Positions 5,211 through 61,632 of a stretch of 64,000 nt of DNA are shown here, piece after piece (position 1 is the stretch's first letter; the number at the start of each line of letters is the position of its first letter). The stretch is from Diphasiastrum complanatum (Eukaryota; Streptophyta; Lycopodiopsida; Lycopodiales; Lycopodiaceae): positions 9,465,746 to 9,529,745 of the forward strand of contig CM055098.1 of NCBI GenBank assembly GCA_029204225.1. Direction: 5' to 3'. The notes beneath the pieces are model-generated. The model did not search any database. It worked only from the letters and a program-made list of their open reading frames with translations, and had not been told where the DNA came from. The position numbers and the translations under genes are program-made.

Positions 5211-6087
5211 TATTTACGATCTTGAGCGTAAAAGATCTTCGGATCGCAGCGTTGTGACAGAGAAACTTGACTACGGCGATTCTCGGCAAGTATTGAAAGA
5301 AATCTTTGGAACAGTGGTATCGGAATATCCACCTAAACATGTACCTGCCAATCAATTCAAAATTCTTGCAGCGCCATTAATCATATACACCTACAATACA
5401 CTCCCAGACAAGCCTCGTACTCACATTACAATAAAAAATCCGCAGTTATCTCTGACATGGGAACAAAATCATGCCGACGGACCTGTATATTTGACCAAGA
5501 TTGCCATGAGGCACATAATTGACATCTCCACTCTGGAATCAAATCCACGAAAGACCGCTGTCGAAGTTTTATCATGCTATGTAGCAAAGCCACAGATCCA
5601 AAACGAAAACAATATAGATCTTACTATTATCCTTGTAACGCTCCAATTTCGGTCAGAGGCCCCACCCGCTGCACCTGCAAGCAGATTAATGGAGGGATTA
5701 GGCGAGGAATCTCTGAGAAAAGTCGATGAAGAAGCATCTGGAAAGCGCCGAAGGAAAAATTCTTATCAGAGCCCAGCTTCAATGGATCGTAATGCTCCTA
5801 GTACTAGCTTAGCCCAGGAAGGCTCCGATCCATCCCGACAAGAAAAGCATGGCGGAAGCATGGATCTGAGGTGGGGAGGCGGTGGCAGGCGTGGACGCAG
5901 CGGCGGAAGCGCAATAAGTGTCAGTAATGCGGCTGCGACCGGTGGCGGTGGCGGACGAAGAAGCCCAGAACGAGCCTCAATTGTCCACATAAGCCATGTG
6001 GACCCCATCCATAATGAAAATTACATGACTGGCCGATTTGTGCTCATTAGACCCCTGGAGGTTGAAGTTCCAAAGAGTCGCCATTAA
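5191..6087 (+). CDS. Unrecognised protein with folded core, basic stretch and Gly/Arg-rich tail
   Basis: This frame has 298 codons and no internal stop. Residues 25-155 look folded, with alternating hydrophobic residues suggesting beta strands. A basic cluster (KRRRK) lies near residue 186, and a Gly/Arg/Ser-rich stretch lies at about 225-260, similar to RNA-binding RGG regions. The ATG sits inside the overlap with the preceding frame, just before an A8 run. Loss of one A, or a +1 slip, would fuse the two into about 400 residues, so this ATG is probably not the true start. No reverse transcriptase, integrase or zinc knuckle follows. The position after a retroelement primer site suggests a gag-like or captured gene. 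A gag or a viral nucleic-acid-binding protein is possible but unproven. Confidence 0.45.
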   Translation: MQKKLISIYDLERKRSSDRSVVTEKLDYGDSRQVLKEIFGTVVSEYPPKHVPANQFKILAAPLIIYTYNTLPDKPRTHITIKNPQLSLTWEQNHADGPVYLTKIAMRHIIDISTLESNPRKTAVEVLSCYVAKPQIQNENNIDLTIILVTLQFRSEAPPAAPASRLMEGLGEESLRKVDEEASGKRRRKNSYQSPASMDRNAPSTSLAQEGSDPSRQEKHGGSMDLRWGGGGRRGRSGGSAISVSNAAATGGGGGRRSPERASIVHISHVDPIHNENYMTGRFVLIRPLEVEVPKSRH

Positions 6088-6159
6088 CAAGGGGGATATT
6101 GGTCTCCTTTTTCATGGCGCTCCTTCCCTCTATTTCACATGGATGGTGCTTGAGTCGAG

Positions 6160-6425
6160 ACGACATAAGCAATGTAGGTGATGGAGGTGGAGGGATGGAT
6201 TTAGGAGTAGCATCTTTGGGTGAGAAATGTTAAGTGATGGATTTAGGAGTAGCATCTTTGGGTGAGAGGACGCAAGGAATGTTAAGTGATGGAGGGGGGA
6301 TAGGGTGGAGGGATGAATTTAGGACATGCTACTAATGGGGTCTTCAGGATGTAGGTGAGAGAGGAATGGACATTAGGAATGTAGGTGAGAGAGGAGCGTC
6401 TTGGGTGAATTTAGGACATGTAGAG
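6160..6425 (+). repeat. Degenerate minisatellite (TTTAGGAGTAGCATCTTTGG unit)
   Basis: A unit of about 42 bp (GATGGATTTAGGAGTAGC followed by ATCTTTGGGTGAGA) occurs at 6194 and again at 6236. Related GGATGTAGGTGAGAGAGGA pieces follow at about 6348 and 6378. The array is short and only partly conserved, and it lies just after the unrecognised coding region. Confidence 0.6.
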
Positions 6426-6429
6426 GAGA

Positions 6430-7670
6430 GGAGAAAACCTAATATTCGAAATGAAGAGCATTATCTTTCATGGGCATTCCTTAGAAGGATCAAGGGAGAG
6501 ACTACTTTGATTAACACCAACAGGAGCACTACTTTGATTAACACAAATGGGCCATTGGGTGTCATGTAACTTGCAACACATTTTCATCAAACGACTCAAG
6601 TGCACACAATTAGAATATCCAATGAATTTTACATTCTTTGAAGTCCTTCACATGTATGCACTATGCACCAGTTAGTGGACAAACCTACAAGGGTGTATGT
6701 ATTTTGATGAGTCTATACTTTTGGAAGCAAATATGCAAGAACGATATAGTTAAGAATGATACATACGCTTGCGATGAAATATAATTAGAAGAATTCTTTA
6801 TAAGAGCTACTAGCTATTCTTACAAGGTAAATGATTGAGAACTACTTGCATTTTAGTTTTTGTTCATTGAATAATATACTGAAAATTTTTTAGCTACAAT
6901 TTTTGTCATTGAACAACATGGCTGTATGCAGGATTTATCGTCAAGACATAAAGTTGTGTCTGCCTTTATGATAGTCTTAATCCGATATGCTTCGGATCTA
7001 CATCATAAATAGTATTGTTAATATTTGGTGAAAAATTTCTTGTTTAATGCTTCAACAAACAAAGGTTAACTTGCCAAGATGTGATTATGTTCGGATTAGA
7101 AATGAGCCACAAAGGCAACTATAAAAAAACAGTGATTTAGATGGTCAAATTACTAGATCCTCAAGGCTAGTTCTAAAAACTTTTTTGCCCAATCTAAATG
7201 GATCAAACTAATTAGCATTGGTCAACTTGTATTTTAAATCTTAATAGTTGTACAAAGTGTAGAAGCTATTCTACAAGAAAATAGAAGTTCATGAACTTAA
7301 TCAAGTTTTTCGCACAAAAAGGCCAACAAATGTTTATAGAAATACACCATACTTATCCTCCAAATTCTTGCATAAGAGTTATGTTGGCCTTTTATAGGAC
7401 TTTAATGATACTTATCCTATAAACTCCTATAGAAAATTGATCTCTTAACATGAAGGACAATTGCTACATTTTTAGCCCATATTTAAGACTGCTTAAAAAG
7501 CAGAATGGATGACCTACTATTTTCAAGGGTAATTATGGTTGCAGATGCAAATTCTGCTTCATAATGGTCTTGTAAAAAAACCTCAGTTTTGAAAACGTTG
7601 ATTATGTTTTATAATTGCGGATTCTACTACGTAGTAGTCATGTAATAAAGCAGCCACTAGTCTTTACACA
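6430..7670. other. AT-rich stretch without genes
   Basis: No open frame longer than about 60 codons, RNA gene or LTR edge was seen. A perfect 14-bp palindrome, CTACTACGTAGTAG, lies at 7624-7637. Confidence 0.5.
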
Positions 7671-8522: not shown

Positions 8523-8649
8523 CAGGTCCTATTGGTTTCAAGAACCAAGTATTGGAGTTAATCTTACTCCTACTCATGCCAACTATCCTCCAATTCACTT
8601 AAGAAAATCACTCTTTTCAAACAGTGTAGAAATGAACTGTTTTTTCACA

Positions 8650-9757
8650 ACAGTTTGCATTTTACACATGCAATCTTCAACAGGCGAAAAATGCGAAGAC
8701 TGCGACAAAGTCTTCAGCTTAACATTCCGAGCACCCGAGAACAAAGATTTTTGTGAGGAATGCGACAACAGTGTTTTACTCGGGATTTCGAGCATCCGAG
8801 AAATGCGACATTTTTTCGAAGAATGCGACACATACTGCAGATCTTTACGGGATACCGCAAGGAACCACCAAGCACCCAAGGCACTGCAAGGAACCGCCCG
8901 AGTCTAGCTTGCAGTCACAATGCGAAGTGGACAAACTGCAGCTTACGAAGAGGGCTAACGGAAGGAACACCGCAAGTTAACGATTGAGGTCAACATGCGG
9001 CTACAACTGCACCGCAATATCACACTCCCGCACACATGCAAAGGAGATTTTGTACAACCTGTTTATGTCTTCATGCTCCGCCAATAATCGATCTACGGAT
9101 CTACTACTAGAACTGTTAATGATCTTTTAAACTGTGTAATTAGAATAACATGAGATCATCCAATAGGTATATAAGAAACTAAGCGAGTAGATACAAGATT
9201 GATCTTCGCAATAGTCTGCGTTTTCCATGCAATCTTCAACAGGCAAAAAATGTGAAGACTGCGACAAAGTATTCAGCTTAACATCTCGAGCACCCGAGAA
9301 CAAAGGTTTTTATAGTGTTTTACTCGAGATTTCGGACACCCGATAAATGTGACATTTTTTCAAAGAATGCGAGGAATGCAACATAATGCAGATTTTACAC
9401 GAGATACTACAAGGAACTGCCAACCACCCAAGGCACCGCAAAGAACCACCCGATTCTAGCTTGTGCTCACAATGTGAAGTGGACGAACTGCAACTTACGA
9501 AGAGGACTGATTGAAGGAACACTGCAAGTCAACGATTGTGGTCAACATGCGGCTGCAACCGCACCACAATATTATGCTCCCGCACACATGCGAAGGAGAT
9601 TTTGTACAACTTGTTTACGTCTTCATGCTCTGTCAATAATCAATCTACAGATCTACTACTAGAACTATTAATGATTTTTTAAACTGTGTAATTAAAATAA
9701 CATGAGATCATCCAACAACTATATAAGGAACTGAGCGAGTAGAGACAGGATTGATCA
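8650..9757 (+). repeat. Tandem duplication of a 555-bp LTR-like promoter unit
   Basis: Two direct copies (about 8650-9203 and 9208-9757, offset about 558 bp) share most positions from the CAATCTTCAACAGGC block to the terminal GATTGATC. Each copy ends with a TATA-like motif (TATATAAG region, about 9166 and 9720) and a conserved AACATGAGATCATCCAA block. The GCGAAAAATGCGAAG motifs match those in the LTR at 156 and in the LTRs of element B, so this looks like a duplicated U3 or two adjoining LTRs. The copies interrupt the chromovirus integrase. Confidence 0.65.
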
Positions 9758-18639: not shown

Positions 18640-19230
18640 CTAGCTGTCTTTGACAAGTTCAAGATTGCAAGGGAGGTCCAATTTTCTACAAAGGTCAAGT
18701 GCTTGAGGAGTGACAATGGTGGTGAGTACATTTCTACCAAGTTCAAAGCATTTTGTGATGCAAATGGGATCAAGAGGGAGTACACAAGCCCAAGGACACC
18801 ACAACAAAATGGAGTGGCCGAGAGGAAGAATAGAACCTTATATGAAGGAGCCAGAGCCATGAGGTTAGGTGCAAATCTTCCTAAATCCTTTTGGGATCAA
18901 GCTTTGTTGTGTGCCAATTTTCTATGCAATAGATGGCCGAGTGTGGTATTGGATGAAAAAACCCCTGTGTCAAGTTTTTCAAAAAAATTGGATACATTTG
19001 CTATATTAACATAACTCTTGATGATAGGACAAAGGAGGATCCATCTTCAAAGAAAGGTATATTTGTTGGTTATAGTGAGGTGAGCAAGGCTTACAAAGTT
19101 TATATTTCCTTCAACTAAGAAAGTGGTCATTGGAAGAGATGTCATTTTTTATGAGGAAAGCTTTCCAAAAGTTTCTTCAAGTGGTGGTGTGGATGTTGGA
19201 TCTAACATTCTTGATTTTGACATTAGGGAA
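18640..19230 (+). pseudogene. Ty1/copia integrase fragment
   Basis: Translation gives KVKCLRSDNGGEYISTKF and then TPQQNGVAERKNRTL, the second half of the copia integrase catalytic core, including the Asp of the SDNGGEY motif and the Glu of AERKNR. A frameshift near 19010 is followed by GIFVGYSEVSKAYKVY and KKVVIGRDVIFYEESF, the linker to reverse transcriptase. Nothing of reverse transcriptase follows and no LTR is adjacent, so this is an isolated fragment. Confidence 0.85.
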
Positions 19231-19379
19231 AATATGGGCTCAAAATGGGCCCTTTAAAAAATTTCACTTTAGAGAGAAGCTACGTACAGAGAGAATGCGA
19301 ACGGGTAATTTTTGGTTGCTATTTTTCGAGTCTCCGGCCTTGCTCGATGTTCTGCTATGGTTAACATCAGACATTAGTT

Positions 19380-20050
19380 AGTTAAGCATGAGAAGTAATA
19401 ACTTCTCTACATGCACGTTTCTAAATTTGGAGCTAGAGCTTTAAGAGTATCATTGTAAATCTTGGTGTGCTATTTGCCAAAAACTGAAGCGAGAGTACAA
19501 TGAGCACTTTTGAAGTCTTTGTTTGCTTACAGTGTAATATGAGGCAGGACGATTTTTCAGCACGACATAGACATTACAAAAGTAAGGTACACTAGATCTA
19601 TTCAATTTGACTTATTGTAGACTAATCAAACGTTTAGTGTTCAATTGGAAAATCACATATGGTGGTTGGCTGCATTCCAGGTATACTTTTCATTTTTCAA
19701 TATTCTTTTCAAGTATTGTAATAAACATTGAATACATTGTCTTTTTTTATTAACGTGTCATGCATTACTTGCTTCTCTATAGGTCTTAAAAGATGACCAT
19801 AAAATACTTTTATGGATATTTTCATGTACAAATAATGTATAACTCGTATGATATATACAAATTTCATTATTTACAAAATTCTTCAAATAATGCAAGGGAT
19901 GCATCCGATCCCTTGCGAAGACCTCCATGTCTTATAACAAAGGAATCTACTTCGATGGTATTTTGCAAAGAAGAGTAAAAAGAGAGATATTTAGATTGAA
20001 AGGTGAAAATCACAATTACAAAAAGCTAAACAATAACCAAAGTATAAGGT
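19380..20050. other. No recognisable gene
   Basis: AT-rich sequence between the copia fragment and the orphan minus-strand ORF. Nothing supportable was seen. Confidence 0.5.
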
Positions 20051-20051
20051 C

Positions 20052-20756
20052 TCAATCTACAAGATCATCATCATCGAGACCGACCATATTTTCTGTTGTA
20101 ATGTCATGGCCACCACTAGACTCTTCAATTCTCACTAGTTCATGATGAATCCTTGGTGGATACCTTTTCTGAAACTCCAAAAATCCTTCTTCACTCAGCA
20201 AGGTTTCAGAAAAAGCTTTGTATTTTTCCATCATGGCATCCAATGCCGCCTTGCCAGATTTCCATTTTCCATTCGTCACAATATCAATCTCGGCCTCGAT
20301 GTCATCATAATTATAATCAATAATATCTGAAAATTCTAACAATTTTTTTGAAAAAATTGAGAAGATTTCACCTTCCCTCAAATCAAAAACATCTTCAATA
20401 TCATTGAACGATACATAACTATCATTATTTATAATATATACAGGAAGATCTAGTAATTTTTTCTCCCTAAAATGAGTTTCTGAAGATTTACAATCAAACA
20501 AAATTATTGAGTGACAAGTAGTCTGCTCAAATTCAGAAGCCATTTCAACTTCAGCTTCAACACCTTTATCTACGTCATCCTCCTCTATATCCATTTGAAC
20601 AGATGAAGGGATGGTAGGTAAACCTAATGAAGATGAACCAACAGACTCATCTTTTGGTACTTCAACAGAGATAAAAAATAAACTCCATGCCTTTTCTAAG
20701 AAGATGACATTTTCTATCGTGAATACTACATTAGGTAATTTTTTTGAAGATGTCAT
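20052..20756 (-). CDS. Intact orphan ORF, acidic 234-residue protein
   Basis: An uninterrupted minus-strand frame from ATG 20756 to stop 20052, long for this AT-rich, stop-rich region. The protein is acidic, with two Asp/Glu clusters (IEEDDVDKGVEAEVEM near residue 57 and a DDDD end), a middle region rich in Phe/Ile, and a helical charged segment (KAALDAMMEKYKAF). No signal peptide, membrane segment or zinc motif was seen. I do not recognise the family. A second minus-strand frame (20973-20785) lies upstream and could be a preceding exon. It lies 1 kb from the H3-like gene copy on the opposite strand, so the two may belong to one element. Confidence 0.45.
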   Translation of the reverse strand: MTSSKKLPNVVFTIENVIFLEKAWSLFFISVEVPKDESVGSSSLGLPTIPSSVQMDIEEDDVDKGVEAEVEMASEFEQTTCHSIILFDCKSSETHFREKKLLDLPVYIINNDSYVSFNDIEDVFDLREGEIFSIFSKKLLEFSDIIDYNYDDIEAEIDIVTNGKWKSGKAALDAMMEKYKAFSETLLSEEGFLEFQKRYPPRIHHELVRIEESSGGHDITTENMVGLDDDDLVD

Positions 20757-21074
20757 GTAATTTTAAGAATTTTCTATCGTGCTTTTATTTGGAAGATGGT
20801 TGGGAATGTACAAGATGTGAAAAATAAACAAAATTACAATTGTCTATATCTATATGAGGTGTAGTAATTGCATGACCAAATTTATCAATAAGATCAACAA
20901 ACTGAAAATGATTCTCATAAACAAACTTATCTATATTGAAGGTGGAAAAGAAAAGGAAAATAAAGTAATCCATTTATTTGGGGGGGATTTCACTGCTAGC
21001 TAAGAAATCCCTCAGTTTATCCTTCGAAGATGTGGAGGTGGACATAGTACTAAATGTAAAAAACGTTAAAAAAG

Positions 21075-21757: not shown

Positions 21758-23137
21758 ACACATACCCAATCATGATTTCAAACGGCTTAGCTTAAGAGCA
21801 TCACCAGATGAAGATTTTCAAATAAAATTCTTTTCAGATTGCTTGGTTGCTACTGTACATGCAAGAAGAATAACAATAATGTCCAAACATTTTGTGCTAA
21901 TTTTTCATATGAGGGATATGCGTATGATACGTTTGCCCAGAATTTTCATCCAACACCTTCTATTCCACCATTTGCTGCCATCACTTCAGGTAGGAAGAGA
22001 AAATGAGTTCAACCTAAGAGGCTTCCAACAATCGTTCAACATGATGTTGTCAAAAAGAGAAGATCCTCAGACCCTCCAAAAAAAGTGAGGGCTAATCTAA
22101 AGCGAGTGGCCCCTTCTTTCTCTTCTTCTTCCTCTTCTTCTTCTAAATCCTAATCCAAGTCACAAAAATCAGTTTCTTTATCTCCCCCCAAGACATAGAA
22201 ATCCTCTTTCATATATCCCTTCAAGACACAAAATCCCCTTCTATATTTCCCTCCAAGACGCATAAATCCCCTTCCAAATCCCCTGCCAAATTTTCATCCA
22301 AATCTTCTCAAAAATCTGTATCCAAATGTCCTTCAAATTTCCCTTCCAAATCTTCTCCCAAATTAGTTTCAAGATCTCCTTCCAAATCTCTTCCCAAATC
22401 AATTTCTAAATTTCCTTCCAAATCTCCTTCTAAATCTCCCAAATCTTCCAAATCTCCTCCCAAATGTATTGAACAGTCCACACAACTCTCTTCTCCACCT
22501 CACCCTAATGGTGAGAAATTAGATTCATTTTTTAATGTGCAAATCAATATTTTTTTTTCGGACGATACATTGAGTCGTGTTTATTTATTTGTTCATATCC
22601 CTCCTTCATTAACTTTTGTAGATTCTAATAAATATGATCAGTACGATCAATTATTGTTCACTCATCTAAAATCTTTCGGCAAGCATTACAATTTTCAATC
22701 TCCCCTTACAAAAATCAATCATACCCTGACTGTGCTAGACACAACTGAATTAACAAATAAAGATAAAATATTAGGGGACGATGTTGGAGTGAGGATTATT
22801 CGGTATTTTCTAGAGTATTATCAGACATTAAATTTTATAGAATTAAAATTATTGTCTATCCATTTTTTAAATAGTATTCATTATCTCCAATTTAAAGAAT
22901 CTTATATGGATGGATATGTGAAAAATGTTAGAACAAAAGCACCTTTGAGTATGGTGTGCCACCATATATATACTAAGTTTTTTTTTCCTCGTGCACTGAA
23001 ATGATATCTCATCATATTCTAGTGCATCAACACATTTTTTTCTGTTTCATTTGTTTGAGCAGTCCTCCGAACAAACAGATTCTGTTAGTTGCGGATGGTA
23101 TACAGTCTTCAACGCAAGATCATTCTTTATGTGGCTG
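21758..23137 (+). pseudogene. Histone-H3-like fold plus Ser/Lys/Pro linker plus possible Ulp1-like domain (copy 1, broken)
   Basis: After a stop near 21757 the frame reads HDFKRLSLRAS, then DEDFQIKFFSDCLVATVHAR and RITIMSKHF (to about 21895). This aligns with the second half of histone H3, including the HAKRVTIMPKD signature; helix alpha-2 is shortened. A frameshift then leads to a basic stretch (KKRRSSDPPKK) and a long Ser-Lys-Pro repeat region (about 22098-22500). A 156-codon frame follows (22537-23004) that matches the C-terminal domain of copy 2 at 33345-33767. After another frameshift comes EQTDSVSCGWYTVFNARSFF (Gln 23072, Cys 23090), with the Gln/Cys spacing of Ulp1/C48 cysteine proteases. 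The 3' end runs into a fragment of element A's LTR. At least two frameshifts make it a pseudogene. Confidence 0.6.
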
Positions 23138-23240
23138 GCTCAACGATTCTATGCTATTCTTGTACATATATTTGCACAAAATGTAAATTAAATAGAGATG
23201 ATGATCTTGTAAGACAGACACTATAGATGCTTTCACACAT
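23138..23240 (+). mobile_element. Fragment of the element A LTR
   Basis: This 100-bp piece closely matches 32398-32490 inside the 3' LTR of element A, including the TTGTAAGACAGACA and ATGCTTTCACACAT blocks. It is all that remains of A's 5' LTR. The join to pol at about 23241 implies deletion of the rest of the LTR, gag and most of the integrase. Confidence 0.65.
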
Positions 23241-24533
23241 CAATCATTGTTTGTACCCTGGTCAAATCAGTCAAGTGTATGCATTTCTTGGCTAAAACTG
23301 TTTCCACCATACATCTAGAACAAATGCTCAACCAAATCCCTCTTAGATAAAACTCGTTTTAAGGTTTGGACAAGATCTAAACCTTCAATGAAGAACCTTC
23401 GAGTATCTGGTTGTATCGCCTATGTGAAGATCCCAAAAGAGACAAGATAGAAATTGGACTTTCAAAGTCTCAAATCCATTTTTATTGGTTATACTTCTTC
23501 CGAGAACACTTACAACCTGTACGACCTAGATACCCAGCAGATCTTTTTTAGCAGGGATATTATTTTTATCGAAAATCAGTTTGTCGACCTCAAAGGCAAG
23601 GGTAAAGTTCCATGCAAGTCATCGACAACTCTTGTCAATGACACAACAATTTGAGTAAGATTGAAACATGTTGACAGTCGAACATCTATTCGATAGCAAG
23701 TCTAAAGAAGATGTTGCTGACACTCAAGAGCATCAAAACCAAGGATTATAGATCATCAATCAATGCCACCTCCAACAAGATCGACTAGAGTGTGACACAG
23801 TCCATGAGGTACATTCATGAGTTTCCTTGTTATTTCATTCAGAAATCGACTTTAGTCGAAGAAGCACTTATCCAATTAGACTCGGATCTCTGGAGAGAAG
23901 CGATGAACAAAGAGTATGTCTCTCTGATTAAGATTTGGACATGGTCACTTGTTGAATTACCTGCCAATAGCAATCTTATCAATTACAAATGGGTCTTTAA
24001 GATTAAATACAAAGCTGATGGGATCATCAATTGAAGGAAGGCCCTCGACTAGTGGCACGAGGATTTTCTCATATCTCGAATGTCAACTACAAATGAGACT
24101 TTCAGTCCGGTAGTCAAGCATTCTTCTATTCGAACACTCCTATTGTATGTTGCAGCAACTGATCTCGAAGTATATAACTCGACGTACAAATAGTTTATCT
24201 GAATGGAGTCATTGTAGAAGACATCCACATGGTGCAGCCCAAGAGATATTTCCGATGTAAGAAGGATCATGTATGCAAACTCCATAAGGCACTTTATGGC
24301 TTGAAGCAATCAGCTAGAGCTTGGTTTTAGAGGATCAACACATTACTCATCATCACGGTTACAAGCCAAGCATTGTTGATTCAAATGTCTATTTCAAGTC
24401 AGTGGATCATTTCTTTATTATTATTACCTTATATGTCAACAACACATTTCTTTTTAGCAATAATGTCGATCAGATAAACAATGCTAAATAGATGTTGTCT
24501 TTCGAATTCGACATCACCGATCTGGATGTGAAT
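23241..24533 (+). pseudogene. Copia element A: integrase tail and first part of reverse transcriptase
   Basis: Frames in this stretch give SIFIGYTSSENTYNLYDLDT and FFSRDIIFIENQF (the end of integrase, 23454-23600). They then give LWREAMNKEYVSLIKIWTW and NYKWVFKIKYKADG (start of reverse transcriptase, 23792-24030). After 24040 the reading is broken by stops but still shows FSPVVKHSSIRTLL and ITLYVNNTFLFSNN, in which the catalytic YVDD is degraded to YVNN. It stops at 24533 inside the codons for DLDVN, where element B begins, and resumes at 31132. Confidence 0.85.
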
Positions 24534-25852
24534 AAACCAAGAGTTTCTATCTTTCAAAGCCTTAGCATTTTTCCTTTGCTGTTTTTAGCGACTGTGCATT
24601 TTGAACTAGGTTTCGCACAATTTGCATTTTTAGGGTCATGAGGAAAATTCATCCCTAGGTCTAAAACACTTAGAAAATAATTCTAAGAACTTTTCCCGAC
24701 ACTGTCGCATTTGTTGCATTTCTGTAAAAAATGTGACATTGTCCCTAAAATGCCTTAAAAAGATTTAGACCCTTAGAAATAGGGACACTCACCCTTAGAA
24801 AAGCAACGTTTTCCTTAGAAATGGTTTCTGCCCTACTGTCGCGTTTTTCGCCTTTCGGAAAAAAGCAACATTGTCGCCAAAATGCCTTAAAACCATTTTT
24901 AGGACTACTGTCGGCTTTTTGCCCTTCGAAAAAAAGCGACACTTGTCTTGAAACAAGTTTCTGCCCTGCTATCGGCTATCTCGCCTTTCGGAAAAAAGTG
25001 ACACATGTCGTTAGAAAAGGGACATTGTTCTACAGCCGTGTTTTTTGCCTCCTTAGAAAAAGGGACATTGCCCTTAGAAATGTTTTCTTGCCAACCTTCA
25101 CATTTTTCGCCCTTTAGGAAAAATCGACACTGTCGCCGAATGCCTTCCGGTTAAAAGCGAAGCTGCCCTTAAAGTCACTAAAATGTCCTTTGGCAAAGAG
25201 CGAAGATTTGCAGTGTGAAGGCACTGTGCAATGGGCAAAAGGCGGCTAATGCAAAAAGGAAAGCGACAGGGAACTAGAAACAGTTTTGGCTAAGCCTAAT
25301 GCATTTTTTTTCATTAGATCTTTTAACTTAATCAGTTCCCTAGTTTGATCACATAAGAAGGAGATCACAGATACAAAATGAAGGCAGTCACACAGATACA
25401 GACAGTCTTGAGATAGCTCAAGAGTGAGTTTTACAAATTAGCAGTAGCTAGTAAGTTTTGTGTGAGAGAGAATGCCTCTCTCGCGCCAACGCGCTGATCT
25501 GAGAAACAGACAACGCTCAAGAATTGTATTGTAAACTCAGTTTTGATAATAGAAGCAATTTTTTCAATACTCTATTTAGTGATGTGTATGATCTGCAATA
25601 TTGAAATGCATGCTATCAGTAGATAAATTTCTGTTGTTGTTATTTCTCAACATTATCTGCTGTTTACAAGTTTAATTTTTACAGTAGACCTACAGTAGCA
25701 ATCGGGGCCTTGGAAGAGAATTAGACCATAGTCAGTAGCAGTAGCTACTCCTGCCAAGTCGGCTCTATCCGGTCTTCATCGCGAATTGGACCGAGGCGTT
25801 TCACTTGGTTTCGCTTTATTCTGCTTCGTGATCATTTGGTTACATTCCATCA
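24534..25852 (+). repeat. 5' LTR of copia element B
   Basis: This 1.32-kb repeat is about 90% similar by eye to 29785-31131. It begins AAACCAAGAG and ends CATTCCATCA, directly before the primer binding site. The start lacks the usual TG. The interior carries repeated GCGACA/TTTCGCC and CCCTTAGAAA motifs. The left flank TGAAT (24529-24533) corresponds to TGAT at the right flank, a probable target duplication with one base lost. Confidence 0.8.
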
Positions 25853-29760: not shown

Positions 29761-29784
29761 ACCAGCTTTGAGAGAGAGCTTAAG

Positions 29785-31131
29785 AAACCAAGAGTTTCTA
29801 TCTTTCAAAGCCTTAGCATTTTTCCTTAGTTTTTCCTTTGCTGTTTTTAGCGACTGTGTATTTTGAACTAGGTTTCGCATAGTCTGCATTTTTAGGGTCA
29901 TGAGAAAAATTCATCCCTAGGTCTAAAACACTTAAAAATAATTCTGAGAACTTTTTTCGACATTGTCGCATTTCTCGCAATTCTACAAAAAAGATGACAC
30001 CGTCTCTAAAATGCCTTACAAAAGTTTAGACCCTTAGAAATAGGGACACTCACCCTTAGAAAAGCAACATTTGCCTTAGAAATGGTTTCTGCCCTACTGT
30101 CACGTTTTTCGCCTTTTAGAAAAAAGCGACACTGTCACCAAAATGTCTTAAAACCCTTTTTAGGACTACTGTCGGCTTTTTTGCCCTTCGGAAAAAAGCG
30201 ACACTAGCCCTTAGAAAAGTGACACTTGCCTTGAAACCAGTTTTTGTCCTACTGTCGGCTTTCTCGCCTTTCGGAAAAAAGCAACACCTACCCTTAGAAA
30301 AGAGACATTGTCCTACAGTCATGTTTTTTGCCTCCTTAGAAAAAGGGACACTGCCCTTAGAAATGTTTTCTTGTCGACCTTCGCATTTTTTGCCCTTCAG
30401 AAAAAAGCGAGACTATCGCCGAATGCCTTCCGGATAAAAGCAAAGGTGCCCTTAAAGTCGCTAAAATGTCCTTTGGCGAAGAGCGAAGATCTACAGCGTG
30501 AAGGCATTGTTCAACGGGCAGAAGGCGACTAATGCACGAAGGACAGCAACAGGGAACTAGAAATAGTTTTGATTAAGCCTAGTGCATTTCTTTTCATTAG
30601 ATCTTTTAAATTAATCAGTTCCCTGGTTTGATCACATAAGAAGGAGATCACAGATACAGAATGAAGGCAGTCACACGGATATAGACAATCTGAGATAGCT
30701 CCAGAGTGAGTTTTACAAACTAGCAATAGCTAGTAAGTTTTTCGTGAGAGAGAATACCTCTCTCACGCCAACATGTTGATCTGGGAAATAGACAGTGCTC
30801 AAAAATTGTATTGTAAACTCAGTTCTGATAATCGAAGTAGTTTTCTCAATACTCTATCCAATGATGTGTATGATCTGCAATATTGGAATGCATGCTATTA
30901 GTAAATATATTTTTGTTGTTATATCTCAACATTATCTGATGTTTACAAGTTTAATTTTCACAACAGATCTGTAGTAGCAATCTGGGGCTTGGAAGAGAAT
31001 TAGAATGCTGTTAGTAGCAGTAGCTACTCCTGCCAAGTCGGCTCTATCCAGACTTCATCGCGAATTGGACCGAGCCATTTCGCTTGGTTTTGTTTCATTT
31101 TGCTTCGCGATCATTCGGTTACATTCCATCA
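29785..31131 (+). repeat. 3' LTR of copia element B
   Basis: Direct repeat of 24534-25852, preceded by the purine-rich TTGAGAGAGAGCTTAAG (29768-29784), the likely polypurine tract. It ends CATTCCATCA at 31131, and element A sequence resumes at TGATGAAGCTC. Divergence from the 5' LTR (about 10% by eye, plus indels) suggests an old insertion. Confidence 0.8.
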
Positions 31132-32036: not shown

Positions 32037-32938
32037 TGTTGGATTTAGTCCTCTACTATCCTAAACCCCATGTTAATCTAGTTCTATTCATAGTGCTTTA
32101 GTTTAACTCTCATTGTCGCACAGTCTGTAGAAATACTCTAGTGTCGAAGATCAACAATCAAATTATTGAAGGCAGCCAAACTATTGAGCTAAGTTAGACT
32201 ATCATCATCTATCAACTATCGACAAATGTTTAACCATTTGATTCGACAAACTGTCGAATCAAACAATCGAACTACTGTCAAGCTCCAGCCCACAAATCGA
32301 TTGAGCCCAAATCGATTGTTGATATCATACCACTCACCCACTCATGTTGTTGTGCAACGGTTTCGATAATGACAGCAACCACAATCTATTTTTTGATGGC
32401 TCAACTACCCTATGCCATTCTTGTACATATATCTGCACAAAATATAAATTAAATATATGATCTTGTAAGACAGACATTGTAGATGCTTTCACACATGGAT
32501 TCTTTTTTTCAGACAGAGAGTCAGAATAAGCTCATAACTATCACAAAACTAAGAAAATTTTGAGCATGCGCCTGCAATTGTCTTGTGCTCCAGCATTGAT
32601 TGACTTGTATTTTTTATACTCTTTAGGAATTAAATCATCATCTTGTTCCATTCAGATTGTCGTTAGTATACATGCAATGCTTTCTTAATCATTCCATTTG
32701 AATTCTTTGATTGTTTTGTCTGAATTATATTCTTTCGCTTCCGCAACTCAATTGAAATTGTGTTTGTCTGCGTAATCAATACCATCGATTCTAACAACTT
32801 TGAAGTTAGAATTAAGTAAAATCAATCGAGTCGTTCGACTCACCATTTTGATTCGATTCGATAGGCATAGTGTATGCACCGAGGAATCATCCGCTGCTTC
32901 ATCATCTTAGCCCGTCACCATTTCCGATATACACCAAC
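32037..32938 (+). repeat. 3' LTR of copia element A (right edge approximate)
   Basis: Starts TGTTGGATTT right after the polypurine tract. It probably ends near ATACACCAACG at about 32938, giving the short inverted ends TGTTGG and CCAAC. It contains repeated TCGA-rich words and a stretch matching 23138-23240. The LTR start (TGTTGGATTT) is the same as that of element C, suggesting related families. Confidence 0.65.
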
Positions 32939-33344: not shown

Positions 33345-35061
33345 TTACTTGGTTATGTATGGGAGCATGAGCAATGGAGTCTCCAGTCTGATGTACTTAA
33401 GCATATCAGCATGCAAACTTTTCAAATCAGGAAAATAAAAAACAACCATGAATTGTAGATGAAACAATGCGACATCTATAAAAATTGGGGTCTGGAAAAA
33501 CTCCATCCAATATTGAATGGGCCCCCCTCCTACATTGTCGCCTAACATGTTATCCCTACTTTCTAATTCACCTGTATCTAATTTACTAAGGGGAAGACCT
33601 ATCTTAGTCTTCGGCATCTTAAAATTGTATTTAGGACCTAGAGCTTTAAGATAAGTATTTAGCAATTGGTCATACTGTACATATTGAGAAGAATTTACAA
33701 ATAAACCACAGAATGAATTGTCATGTAAAATCGATTCAACCTTTAAATTTACAAAATCATCTAACACTTCTCTTGATGCTGTAGGGGGGGACCTAATATG
33801 GGGGGAAGTAGGAGGAGATTTTGATTTAGGAGACGGAGATTTAGGAGACTGAGATTTAGAAGATTGAGATTTAGGAGACTGAGATTTAGGAGACTGAGAT
33901 GCTAGAGGAGGAGATTTATTAGGAGAGAAATCTTTAGGAGGAGAAGAAGGAGAGTGGGATTTAGGAGGAGAAAACTTTCTAGGAGGAGAAGGAGACTAAG
34001 GTTTAGGTGGAGAGGAATATTTAGGAGGCGATTTTGAATGAGGAGAAGGAGACCTCGGAGGAGGTTGTCTAGCTATTAGAATATCATGCAGAGAAGACAA
34101 CTTTGAAAAATATCTGGATTTATTAGGATAGTCAAGAGACTTTATCTTTTTTGAAACTCTCCCGCTTTGATTTCGAAATACAAGCCGGGTCGGTTGAGAT
34201 TGCTTCCGTTGTTTTTTTTATGCATCTTATTTTGGAGGAGATGACGGAGTTGGTCTGAAGTACTTAACAAATTTGTCATATGTGTCCCGTAGCTTGAACA
34301 CAAGGGTGAAATCCTTTGGCATGATGGTCACCCTCTTGGCATGGACAGCTGCAACAACACTATCTGAAAAAAAAATTCACTTGAAAATCCTCATATGTAG
34401 TGTGCAGAGCTTCAACTGCCGTTAGTGTCCATCTCACATCTGCAGAGAGACTTCTTGTTACCTATCTGATGGATCTCTGTATGTGAGCTTTCGAAATCAG
34501 AAGATTATTGGTCTTCTGAAGCTTCCGGATATCCTTTAGCCATGGCGGGTCTCGTGGTCCCCTTGACCTAGGAGGAGGTGGTGGTGGACGAGGCGGTGGT
34601 GGATTTTCATGGCCTCCTTGAATTGAGTACCTCCAGGATGGATACGTGCAGTTTGCTTCGTGCACGCCATTAGGACCCAATGTCGAATGAGCGCGCACGT
34701 AGAGAGGTCCCAGAATCAGAATGGAAGTCGGGCGCACCGAACCAATATCGGAAAGAAAAGTCTTTAATGAGCTATCGATAGTGGATGGGCACACGGGAGT
34801 TTGGAAGGGAAACTGAGCAGTTCCGTCGGGCACGTTGAACCGATACCTCATATTAATAGAGATGATCCGAAATTGAAAGAAAATTTTTTTAAGCATCGTG
34901 CAGGTGATAGTGCCAAAATCTGAAATGATTGCCATTGTGATATAGTTGCGAATATCGAGACATGGATTACAAAGATCAATAAATTTGAAATCTTTTGTAA
35001 TCTCAAAAATCAAATCATTATTGAATGTTTGTGGGTCATCACGAATGATTAATCGATAAGG
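33345..35061 (-). pseudogene. Histone-H3-like protein with N-terminal domain, Ser/Pro linker and possible Ulp1-like domain (copy 2)
   Basis: Read on the minus strand from about 35061. An N-terminal region of about 140 residues (FEITKDFKFIDLCNPCLDI, MRYRFNVPDGTAQFPFQ) is followed by a proline run (about 34570-34610). Then comes an H3 fold at about 34545-34260: WLKDIRKLQKTNNLLISK (alpha-N and alpha-1), RWTLTAVEALHTTYEDFQ (alpha-2), and VVAAVHAKRVTIMPKDFTLV (loop 2 and alpha-3). The last is close to the AIHAKRVTIMPKD signature of histone H3. A TAG at 34462-34464 and a TAA at 34227-34229 break it. A Ser-Pro-Lys repeat linker (34200-33770) leads to an open 140-codon frame (33767-33345) homologous to 22537-23004. 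Role unknown: chromatin-binding or viral/transposon-derived. Confidence 0.65.
34260..34545 (-). other. Histone H3-like fold domain
   Basis: This is the part of the gene at 33345-35061 that aligns end to end with the histone H3 core: the R-EIRKYQKST-like alpha-N (KDIRKLQKTNNLL), alpha-1, the long alpha-2 and the HAKRVTIMPKDF segment at 34308-34343. The conserved residues sit at the correct spacing, apart from one internal stop (34462-34464). The canonical N-terminal tail (ARTKQTARKS) is absent and replaced by the unknown domain and a proline run. It is therefore not an ordinary nucleosomal H3 or CENH3 gene. Confidence 0.75.
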
Positions 35062-60400: not shown

Positions 60401-61632
60401 ACGTTCTGGAGGGTGGGCAGAAAAGGGATCCCGGCCCATCATGGAAGATGCACATGTGCGGATTGACGATCTTATAGAACACTTAGGTTTTCCTTTTGTT
60501 GGCGACAGTCCTGGGGCTTTCTATGGGGTGAGTTAACGTGGATTTTGCAGAGTCTAGCTATTGACTTTTCGGATCATATAGTTTACTTCTTATATGTTTC
60601 CCCGCTCTCTTTTCTTGAAGATGTTGGAATAAATTTTTTGGTCGGTTGGTACATTATGCCTGATGTTGAGGTTGGCTTAAATGAACATTGAACCTATTTT
60701 ATTGAAATGAATGCGTGATATGTTTTTCATTCTGCCAGGTCTTTGATGGGCATGGTGGCAAGGATGCAGCAAATTTTGTTAGAGAAAATTTGCTGAAGTT
60801 CATTGTTGAGGATTATTCATTTCCAGATGCAGTTGAAGATGCTGTTAAGCATGCCTTCCTGCAGGCTGATCATGCCTTTGCTGAAGCATGTTTGGTTGAC
60901 AGGGAACTTTCTTCGGGAACGACAGCTCTCACAGCTCTAATATTTGGAAGGTTCTTTCTCTGTCCCTCTCTCTCACACGCACACGCAAACAAGGATTTAC
61001 ATACACACAACTTATGCTGTCTCCAAATTTGCAGGATGTTGTTGGTGGCCAATGCAGGAGATTGTCGGGCAGTACTATCTAGGCGAGGAATAGCTGTGGA
61101 GATGTCAAGAGACCACAAACCTTGTTCTGTTACAGAGAAAATTCGTATCGAGTCTTTGGGGGGGTATGTGGATGATGGATACTTAAATGGCCAACTTGGT
61201 GTAGCCAGAGCATTGGGGGATTGGCACATAGACGGATTGAAAGCATCTGGTGTTGACTGTCCTCTGACTGCGGAACCAGAAATTCAGCAGGCAGTTTTGA
61301 CTGAGGAAGATGAATTCATGATCATCGGCTGTGATGGTTTGTGGGATGTTTTTACGAGCCAAAATGCTGTAGATTTTGCTCGGAAGAAGCTACAGCTGCA
61401 TAACGATCCCGAACGATGCTCTAAGGAATTAGTTGGAGAAGCATTGCGACGTGAAACTTTGGATAATCTGACAGTTTTAACAGTCTGCTTTCATGCCAGC
61501 CCACCCCCCGCTGCTGAGCCAGCACCCAGACTTGCATTAAACTCTGCTGTAAGGAGGAATATTTCGGTTGAAGGCTTCCGCAGTTTGCAACTGGTCCTGA
61601 ATGAAGTATTTGAGAGTTCTCGAGGGACATGA
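57423..61632 (+). CDS. Protein phosphatase 2C (PP2C), DBP1/PP2C22-like, five coding exons
   Basis: Metal-dependent Ser/Thr phosphatase acting in signalling. My model has exons 57423-57659, 58257-58346, 60345-60527, 60739-60950 and 61035-61632, all with GT-AG introns and compatible phases, giving 1320 nt and 439 residues. ATG 57423 has G at -3 and +4 and an in-frame TGA 18 bp upstream. The catalytic domain from about residue 122 shows all PP2C signatures in order: SRPIMEDAH, VFDGHGGKDAA (metal-binding Asp), LSSGTTALTAL, VANAGDCRAVLS, SRDHKP, GQLGVARALGDW, IIGCDGLWDVF and DNLTVLTV. The N-terminal 120 residues are less conserved and lack a signal peptide. Length and motifs resemble the plant DBP1/PP2C22/PP2C27 type rather than the ABI1 co-receptor type. 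Catalytic residues are present, so it should be active. Confidence 0.9.
57660..58256 (+). other. PP2C intron 1
   Basis: Starts GTATGC after TCCCGACTG and ends TTGCAACAG. No other feature seen. Confidence 0.7.
58347..60344 (+). other. PP2C intron 2 (2.0 kb)
   Basis: Starts GTACGA and ends GATGAACAG. Several short frames inside are not convincing. No nested element or RNA gene seen. Confidence 0.7.

Follow-up and report, generated by a model that had tools for sequence, protein, structure and literature searches.

The question raised by this locus is what kind of gene carries a histone H3 fold within a larger, non-histone protein, and whether such a gene belongs to the plant, to a virus or to a transposon. 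We analysed a window of 64,000 nucleotides from Diphasiastrum complanatum (C7:9465746-9529745), meaning by window the whole stretch, together with the genome from which it comes (1.745 Gb in 5176 contigs). The gene under study, hereafter copy 2, is a single broken gene on the minus strand (34670-33345) that encodes, in this order, an H3 tail, a polyproline segment, an H3 core, a basic linker, Ser-Pro repeats and a C-terminal domain. A sequence-only reading of the same DNA had claimed an H3-type fold here and had named a search with the Pfam Histone profile as the check. The core (34548-34287, minus strand), written with X at its stop and with its two frames joined across the frame break, matched that profile (PF00125) at 68 bits against a cut-off of 26.4 (E 1.1e-18) and aligned to a solved H3 without gaps over 84 residues (E 4.5e-17), which bears the claim out. 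The first part of the core (LKDIRKLQKTNNLLI..TTYEDFQVNF, 34376-34548) is interrupted by a TAG at 34464-34462, and its end (FSDSVVAAVHAKRVTIMPKDFTLVFKLR, 34287-34370) lies in another frame, past a run of T near 34375-34367 where the frame breaks. A mini-intron at this run was rejected, since copy 1, the related gene on the plus strand of the window, reads FQIKFFSD in one frame. The basic linker with the first Ser-Pro repeats (33996-34286) contains three further in-frame stops (TAA 34229-34227, TAA 34220-34218 and TAG 33998-33996) and is followed by Ser-Pro-Lys repeats (33795-33995) and by the C-terminal domain (33345-33794), whose last residues, PYITK, adjoin a donor-like GTAAGT site. The polyproline run, the Ser-Pro-Lys repeats and the further C-terminal domain described in the sequence-only reading are all present, as are the two stops from which it had concluded that the gene is decayed (TAG 34462-34464 and TAA 34227-34229), to which the frame break and the other stops have to be added. 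What it had missed is that the gene opens at 34670, in a frame differing from that of the core, with an N-terminal tail of canonical H3 type (MACTKQTARIHPGG). The tail segment MACTKQTARIHPGGTQFKEA (34611-34670, minus strand) opens with the ATG at 34670 and has lysine as residue 4 and isoleucine as residue 9, and the polyproline segment leading from tail to core (34549-34602) is not in the frame of the tail, the corresponding segment of the relative L045 being in frame.

An H3 core within a larger non-histone protein is one part of that earlier reading that stood, whereas the virus origin discussed below and an unknown domain of about 140 residues placed in front of the histone found no support. 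The open frame taken for this domain (34671-35061, minus strand) is unsupported as part of the gene. In full it comprises 153 codons, from 35061 to about 34603; Pfam gave no match, and tblastn with the relatives gave only weak ones (E 0.012 or worse). Stop-free frames of at least 153 codons appeared on average 0.4 times per random window, with a maximum of two (40 simulations). In L045 and L046, stops lie directly upstream of the related open reading frames. Because the DNA similarity of copy 2 to three relatives (L045, L046 and L047) starts only at 34672, two bases before the ATG of the tail, the upstream frame is most likely a product of chance lying outside the protein.

Less damaged relatives exist elsewhere in the genome. 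The locus L045 contains an uninterrupted ORF of 417 amino acids (5520-6770) that reads MVQTKQTARGHSGG, polyproline, H3 core, basic linker, Ser-Pro repeats and C-terminal domain; it is colinear with copy 2 (64-81%), its linker matching that of copy 2, and its unbroken core reaches 73.1 bits with the Histone profile (cut-off 26.4). A second ORF of like architecture, L046:2948-4228, is also uninterrupted (427 amino acids), with a tail that lacks the ATG. The same profile gave at least 153 matches in the genome (150 of 6325 first-look candidates having been scored). By hand count, the 150 matches listed comprise 13 canonical-like ones (163.7-165 bits) and 137 divergent ones, 80 of the latter being free of in-frame stops, and the last three matches listed cover the second half of the profile only. 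Used alone as a homology query, the C-terminal domain of copy 2 found no relative among 48 candidates. It matches that of L045 at 73% over 150 and P0053, a relative of 223 amino acids from a 974-bp contig, at 50.6% over 160 columns (E 4e-47), and a search with P0053 found at least 150 copies of the domain, none of them with an E above 5.9e-46 (of 5206 candidates, 150 were scored). Searches of PHROGs and Rfam gave nothing useful. An intact copy in the same genome, which the earlier reading had advised looking for, is thus found in L045, along with dispersed copies.

The H3 gene is accompanied by other genes. Among 20 loci picked for long H3 frames, 19 (the exception being L018) had beside it at least one of three partners, namely a transposase-like gene (13/20), a gene X (15/20) and a gene Y (17/20). 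The elements fall into the groups A, B, C (L028) and D (copy 2 of the window and L045-L047). Family A has the order Y(+), H3(+), X(-), transposase-like(-), and family B the order transposase-like(+), X(-), H3(+), Y(-). In L046 and L047, X and Y were found and a transposase-like gene was not at E 1e-4, and L045 has none of the three partners within its 9.8 kb. The ends of the elements are inverted repeats starting with CATTAG, of 37 bp in A and about 28 bp in B, and one B copy spans about 9.3 kb (L030:5206 to L027:8510). A left end of family B placed at CACTCCC proved to be wrong, the terminal inverted repeat (TIR) of L027 lying 107 bases further out. One end of family D could be read, in L047, and the ends of C were not found. 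In A and B, both ends bound dispersed copies, as defines a TIR DNA transposon. The exact 32-nt TIR of A occurs 653 times in the genome and the 32-nt TIR of D 373 times, with no occurrence of the reversed-pattern controls. The transposon-family origin that the sequence-only reading had put forward beside a viral one gains support from the intact ORF of L045, the many dispersed copies and the hundreds of TIR copies.

One insertion made it possible to examine the target. A short family A element of 1.1 kb with both TIRs (L014 1084-2173) lies inside a family B transposase-like gene, and its joined flanks agree with the unbroken sites of L016 (95.0% of 120 bases), L024 (95.8% of 120) and L027 (95.0% of 101 bases). 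These flanks are gapless at the junction, which indicates that no bases were duplicated or lost in the target, GTTAG|ATTAA; the comparison of L019 with the L014 flanks has a 17-base gap starting at the junction. Read by eye, seven other insertions (five TIR pairs, L011 and L027) had no target site duplication (TSD) of consistent length, with a 3-bp match in one and a 2-bp match in two. CACTA or EnSpm elements have CACTA ends, a 3-bp TSD and a TNP2 transposase, and an assignment to them was rejected on the CATTAG ends, the 0-bp TSD in one empty site and the lack of any such Pfam match; Helitrons were set aside because the elements have TIRs. The transposase-like protein itself has no match in Pfam or PDB, its D, D and E candidates were picked by eye only, and its AlphaFold model (11 sequences) was too poor to use (pLDDT 41).

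Within the window, copy 1 (plus strand) has a linker, repeats and C-terminal domain related to those of copy 2 and only the second half of the H3 core. On its left lies a TIR (19221-19255, plus strand) in which 29 of 35 bases equal the family D repeat of L047, that is, with 6 mismatches, the best of 10 random windows having 12. It is followed by a probable remnant of the transposase-like gene (19522-19722, plus strand; 31.7% over 82 amino acids, with 15 of 17 residues matching at 19633-19683), whose E value is 6.5e-5 against the window alone and 3.6e-4 against all loci, on either side of the line used (1e-4). A remnant of gene X on the minus strand (20052-21024) matches 317/347 residues of L046:5101-6141 at 47-50% (E 9e-61) and includes an open frame of 236 amino acids (20052-20762). 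Then come, all on the plus strand, the C-terminal part of the H3 core (EDFQIKFFSDCLVATVHARRITIMSKHF, 21810-21917; Histone E 0.011, 16.5 bits, below the cut-off), the frame-shifted basic linker with Ser-Pro-Lys repeats (21920-22490), the C-terminal domain, predicted to be the N-terminal half of a protease (22492-22956; 49% to P0053 over 155 columns, E 4e-41), and an exon with a catalytic Cys (SSEQTDSVSCGWYTVFNARSFFMWLA.., 23063-23188) that has relatives in families B and D and, taken alone, no Pfam match. This order (TIR, transposase-like remnant, X, H3, C-terminal domain) is that of family B, and copy 1 is situated in a decayed TIR element, of which the right end was not found. A third fragment (32336-32449, plus strand) is a truncated and diverged form of the same Cys exon (44.7% over 38 amino acids, E 1e-7; 87% DNA identity at 32397-32496). 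No TIR was found in the window for copy 2, which we read as an element gene because its relatives are element genes.

The window holds other features as well. Two direct repeats of 1.3 kb that are 87% alike (24531-25852 and 29782-31131) surround Copia-like open frames, an arrangement that resembles an LTR retrotransposon lying within another Copia fragment. A stretch of about 560 bases is duplicated in tandem inside open frames (8644-9204 and 9205-9756, the two copies being 83% alike), and the open frame 60706-61632 resembles, judged by eye, a plant PP2C phosphatase.

An Ulp1-type protease was suspected from the box SEQTDSVSCGWYTVFNARSFF that follows the C-terminal domain of copy 1. In families B and D the C-terminal domain is followed in constant order by an HW box and a Cys box, (Q)xDSxSCGWY (6858-6944 and 7276-7353 in L045, 5843-5923 and 6143-6214 in L027). 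The region of the Cys box was matched in 7/7 family B loci, 4/6 family D loci (not in L042 and L047) and L031, with no match in 12 family A loci or L028; family A ends after the H3 core. Copy 1 of the window retains the Cys box only, the HW box contains stops in L016, L043 and L044, and Tyr replaces the Cys in L014 and L018. The joined exons of L027 (family B) matched the Pfam family Peptidase_C48 with 23.8 bits (E 4.6e-5; cut-off 20.7), and those of L045 (family D) and the pieces in the window gave no C48 match. The AlphaFold model of the C-terminal domain (3 sequences) was again too poor (pLDDT 36). From the HW and Cys boxes, two of the three catalytic boxes (His, Asp and Cys) that such a protease has in order, we predict that the C-terminal domain belongs to an Ulp1/C48-like protease, of which copy 2 would keep the N-terminal half, as judged from the catalytic boxes downstream in its relatives.

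Examination of the H3 tails was based on a scan of the window and of all loci longer than 500 bases for sequences like ARTKQTAR, a scan that favoured K4 and not K9. Lysine 9 was present in none of the 24 element tails found, against all eight host H3s read; 14 of the element tails have D at position 9, five have G, two have A, and M, L and I occur once each, the I being that of the window. Only L028 has lost K4, which the other 23 element tails retain, and ARKS, the motif with K27 in host tails, is absent from the 44 residues printed per element tail. Four loci in which no tail was found (L016, L023, L024 and L044) stand outside this count. In the core, copy 2 and host H3 share 37 of 85 residues. 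The tree of 30 H3 rows, whose CENH3 rows are approximate sequences, joins canonical H3 with seven H3s of a protein collection (89/80) and leaves all element H3s outside that group; copy 2 forms a weak group with C and B (75/58), C joining B at 85/59, and family A stands apart (100/99). Compared with CENH3, which has a longer loop 1, the cores of family B are one residue longer and those of A and C are not. As a separate observation, P0006, P0009, P0017 and P0020 have an H3 tail (MA[RC]TKQTARK, K9 present), an insert of at least 200 residues and an H3 core, and may represent a further H3 lineage characterised by large inserts.

Selective constraints were estimated as dN/dS by Nei-Gojobori counts, the pooled values coming from pairs that are not independent. 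The H3 core gave 0.16 pooled within B (0.11 for L016-L027), 0.48 pooled within A and 0.45 for L045-L046 in D, the values of A and D being moderately below 1. The C-terminal domain gave 0.32 in D and 0.37 in B, the linker 1.86 in D and 0.42 in B, and the tail plus polyproline segment of D 1.11 over 42 codons. Differences between copy 1 and copy 2 by codon position amount to 67/41/78 in 145 codons of the C-terminal domain and 11/2/20 in 28 codons of H3, a bias that matches the expectation for genes formerly under selection on their protein. Judging from these counts, the H3 core and the C-terminal domain look as if they had been under purifying selection in the past. By hand count, 57 of the divergent H3 rows listed have in-frame stops, TAG being present in 52 of these rows, TGA in six and TAA in one, and this excess of TAG suggests decay at methylated CAG sites.

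That the gene and the element are what we describe is, in our judgement, highly probable. The fuller reading, that copy 2 is a decayed gene of a transposon family in which H3 was joined to a predicted Ulp1-type protease and served as an anti-silencing histone, has in our view about an even chance of being right. On plant transposons, H3K9me2 and CHG methylation are mutually sustaining, and SUMO pathways participate in silencing. The H3 part would pair with H4 and enter nucleosomes or bind an H3 chaperone. Nucleosomes having a tail with K4 and without K9 or the K27 motif could not take H3K9me2, the mark by which CHG methylation is maintained on plant transposons. In B and D the tethered protease may in addition strip SUMO from silencing factors at the chromatin of the element, and family A would depend on the K9-less histone alone. 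Our most specific proposal is put forward tentatively, with somewhat less than an even chance: a lineage of TIR transposons, with an undescribed transposase and inserting without TSD, may make its own K9-less H3, in some families fused to a putative SUMO protease, and so build nucleosomes on which the host could set no silencing mark, SUMO being removed from the silencing machinery at that place as well.

Placing these results under a different explanation requires asking what the H3 part could otherwise be for. It could descend from centromeric CENH3 and serve for targeting or segregation, bringing the element or its transposase to particular chromatin, the protease being secondary. Features in this direction are the marks resembling CENH3 in the element cores (a W before LxEIR, LLIPxAPFxRxVRxIT and KDF), of which copy 2 shows RW and FSDS, as well as the position of the element H3s outside the canonical group of the tree (89/80). 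However, no union of the element H3s and CENH3 appears in the tree, and the counts of identities, made like the tree with approximate CENH3 rows, do not favour CENH3 consistently. Nor do the elements cluster clearly along the contigs: of the 653 family A TIRs, the 98 that lie on C1-C3 show no clear departure from uniformity (KS p 0.076, 0.64 and 0.71), and the same is true of 67 of the 150 C-domain matches listed (KS p 0.56). We consider such a role unlikely. Slightly more unlikely is that fragments of H3 and ULP genes were captured as in Pack-MULEs and amplified as passive cargo with no function of their own, an idea favoured by the many broken copies, that of the window included, and by the pieces of host genes that DNA transposons often carry according to a review (PMC13317346). 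The H3 core and the C-terminal domain are conserved in families that have diverged from one another, and their dN/dS is lower than that of the linkers, which speaks against it, as do the long uninterrupted ORFs that persist and the partner genes found beside H3 in 19 of the 20 loci.

Two further origins lie outside the transposons. Viral histones exist in giant viruses and bracoviruses, and a multi-gene element with a predicted cysteine protease could be thought to stem from an endogenous DNA virus or a Polinton-like element, as the sequence-only reading had supposed in part. Two scans of IMG/VR found no relative and none of ten element ORFs had a viral Pfam domain above the cut-off, and the TIRs of about 28-37 bp with an insertion lacking TSD fit a transposon, which makes a viral origin very improbable. 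Hardly credible, finally, is an ordinary H3 or CENH3 pseudogene of the host that came to lie beside unrelated Ser-Pro-rich sequence, the fusion being only apparent through decay. Copy 2 taken alone, broken in several frames, would allow it, but the same order recurs in copy 1, L045 and L046, the single 417-aa ORF of L045 contradicts it, the core shares just 37 of 85 residues with host H3, and the host H3 genes are intact and separate. We retain the transposon gene with its K9-less histone as the preferred reading.

Our library searches brought up no precedent for an H3 encoded by a transposon, and the elements can best be placed by comparison with systems that share some of their parts. With host H3 and CENH3, the element proteins share the H3 core, which in copy 2 aligns without gaps, and a tail like ARTKQTAR; they differ in having lost K9 and the K27 motif, in a core that is roughly half identical and in the long linker and protease-like domain of families B and D. 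The protein P0005 (653 amino acids) also has an H3 core and a Peptidase_C48 domain in one chain, but there C48 lies between tail and core and K9 is kept (MPLTKQAPRK), unlike in the elements. Spy elements, of the PHIS superfamily, are described as DNA transposons that lack TSD and insert within AAATTT (PMC4482050); the absence of TSD is shared, and an assignment to Spy was rejected on the target, here GTTAG|ATTAA, with no PHIS transposase domain found in Pfam.

The closest functional parallels concern resistance to silencing, it being known already that transposons carry anti-silencing proteins and chromatin enzymes. In Arabidopsis and its relatives, KIU/VANC Vandal MULEs carry a Ulp1 domain that was captured into a gene connected with anti-silencing, and KIU genes accompany hypomethylation in these elements, according to the review (PMC13317346), which states that the precise function of Ulp1 domains in plant transposons is unknown and in whose main text the word histone does not appear. 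Both the Vandal MULEs and the elements of D. complanatum are DNA transposons with an Ulp1-type domain, which is a predicted one in the latter; the former are non-TIR elements, whereas the latter have TIRs, no MULE transposase match in Pfam and no TSD at one site. DNA transposons of fungi that encode TET/JBP carry a chromatin gene in several lineages and have been proposed to counter silencing with it (PMC12730594), the cargo there being a DNA dioxygenase and here a histone. If our reading is true, a core histone lacking the residue on which silencing acts would be a new weapon of transposons and a natural H3K9 mutant on a genomic scale, and it may bear on the recurrence of Ulp1 domains in plant transposons.
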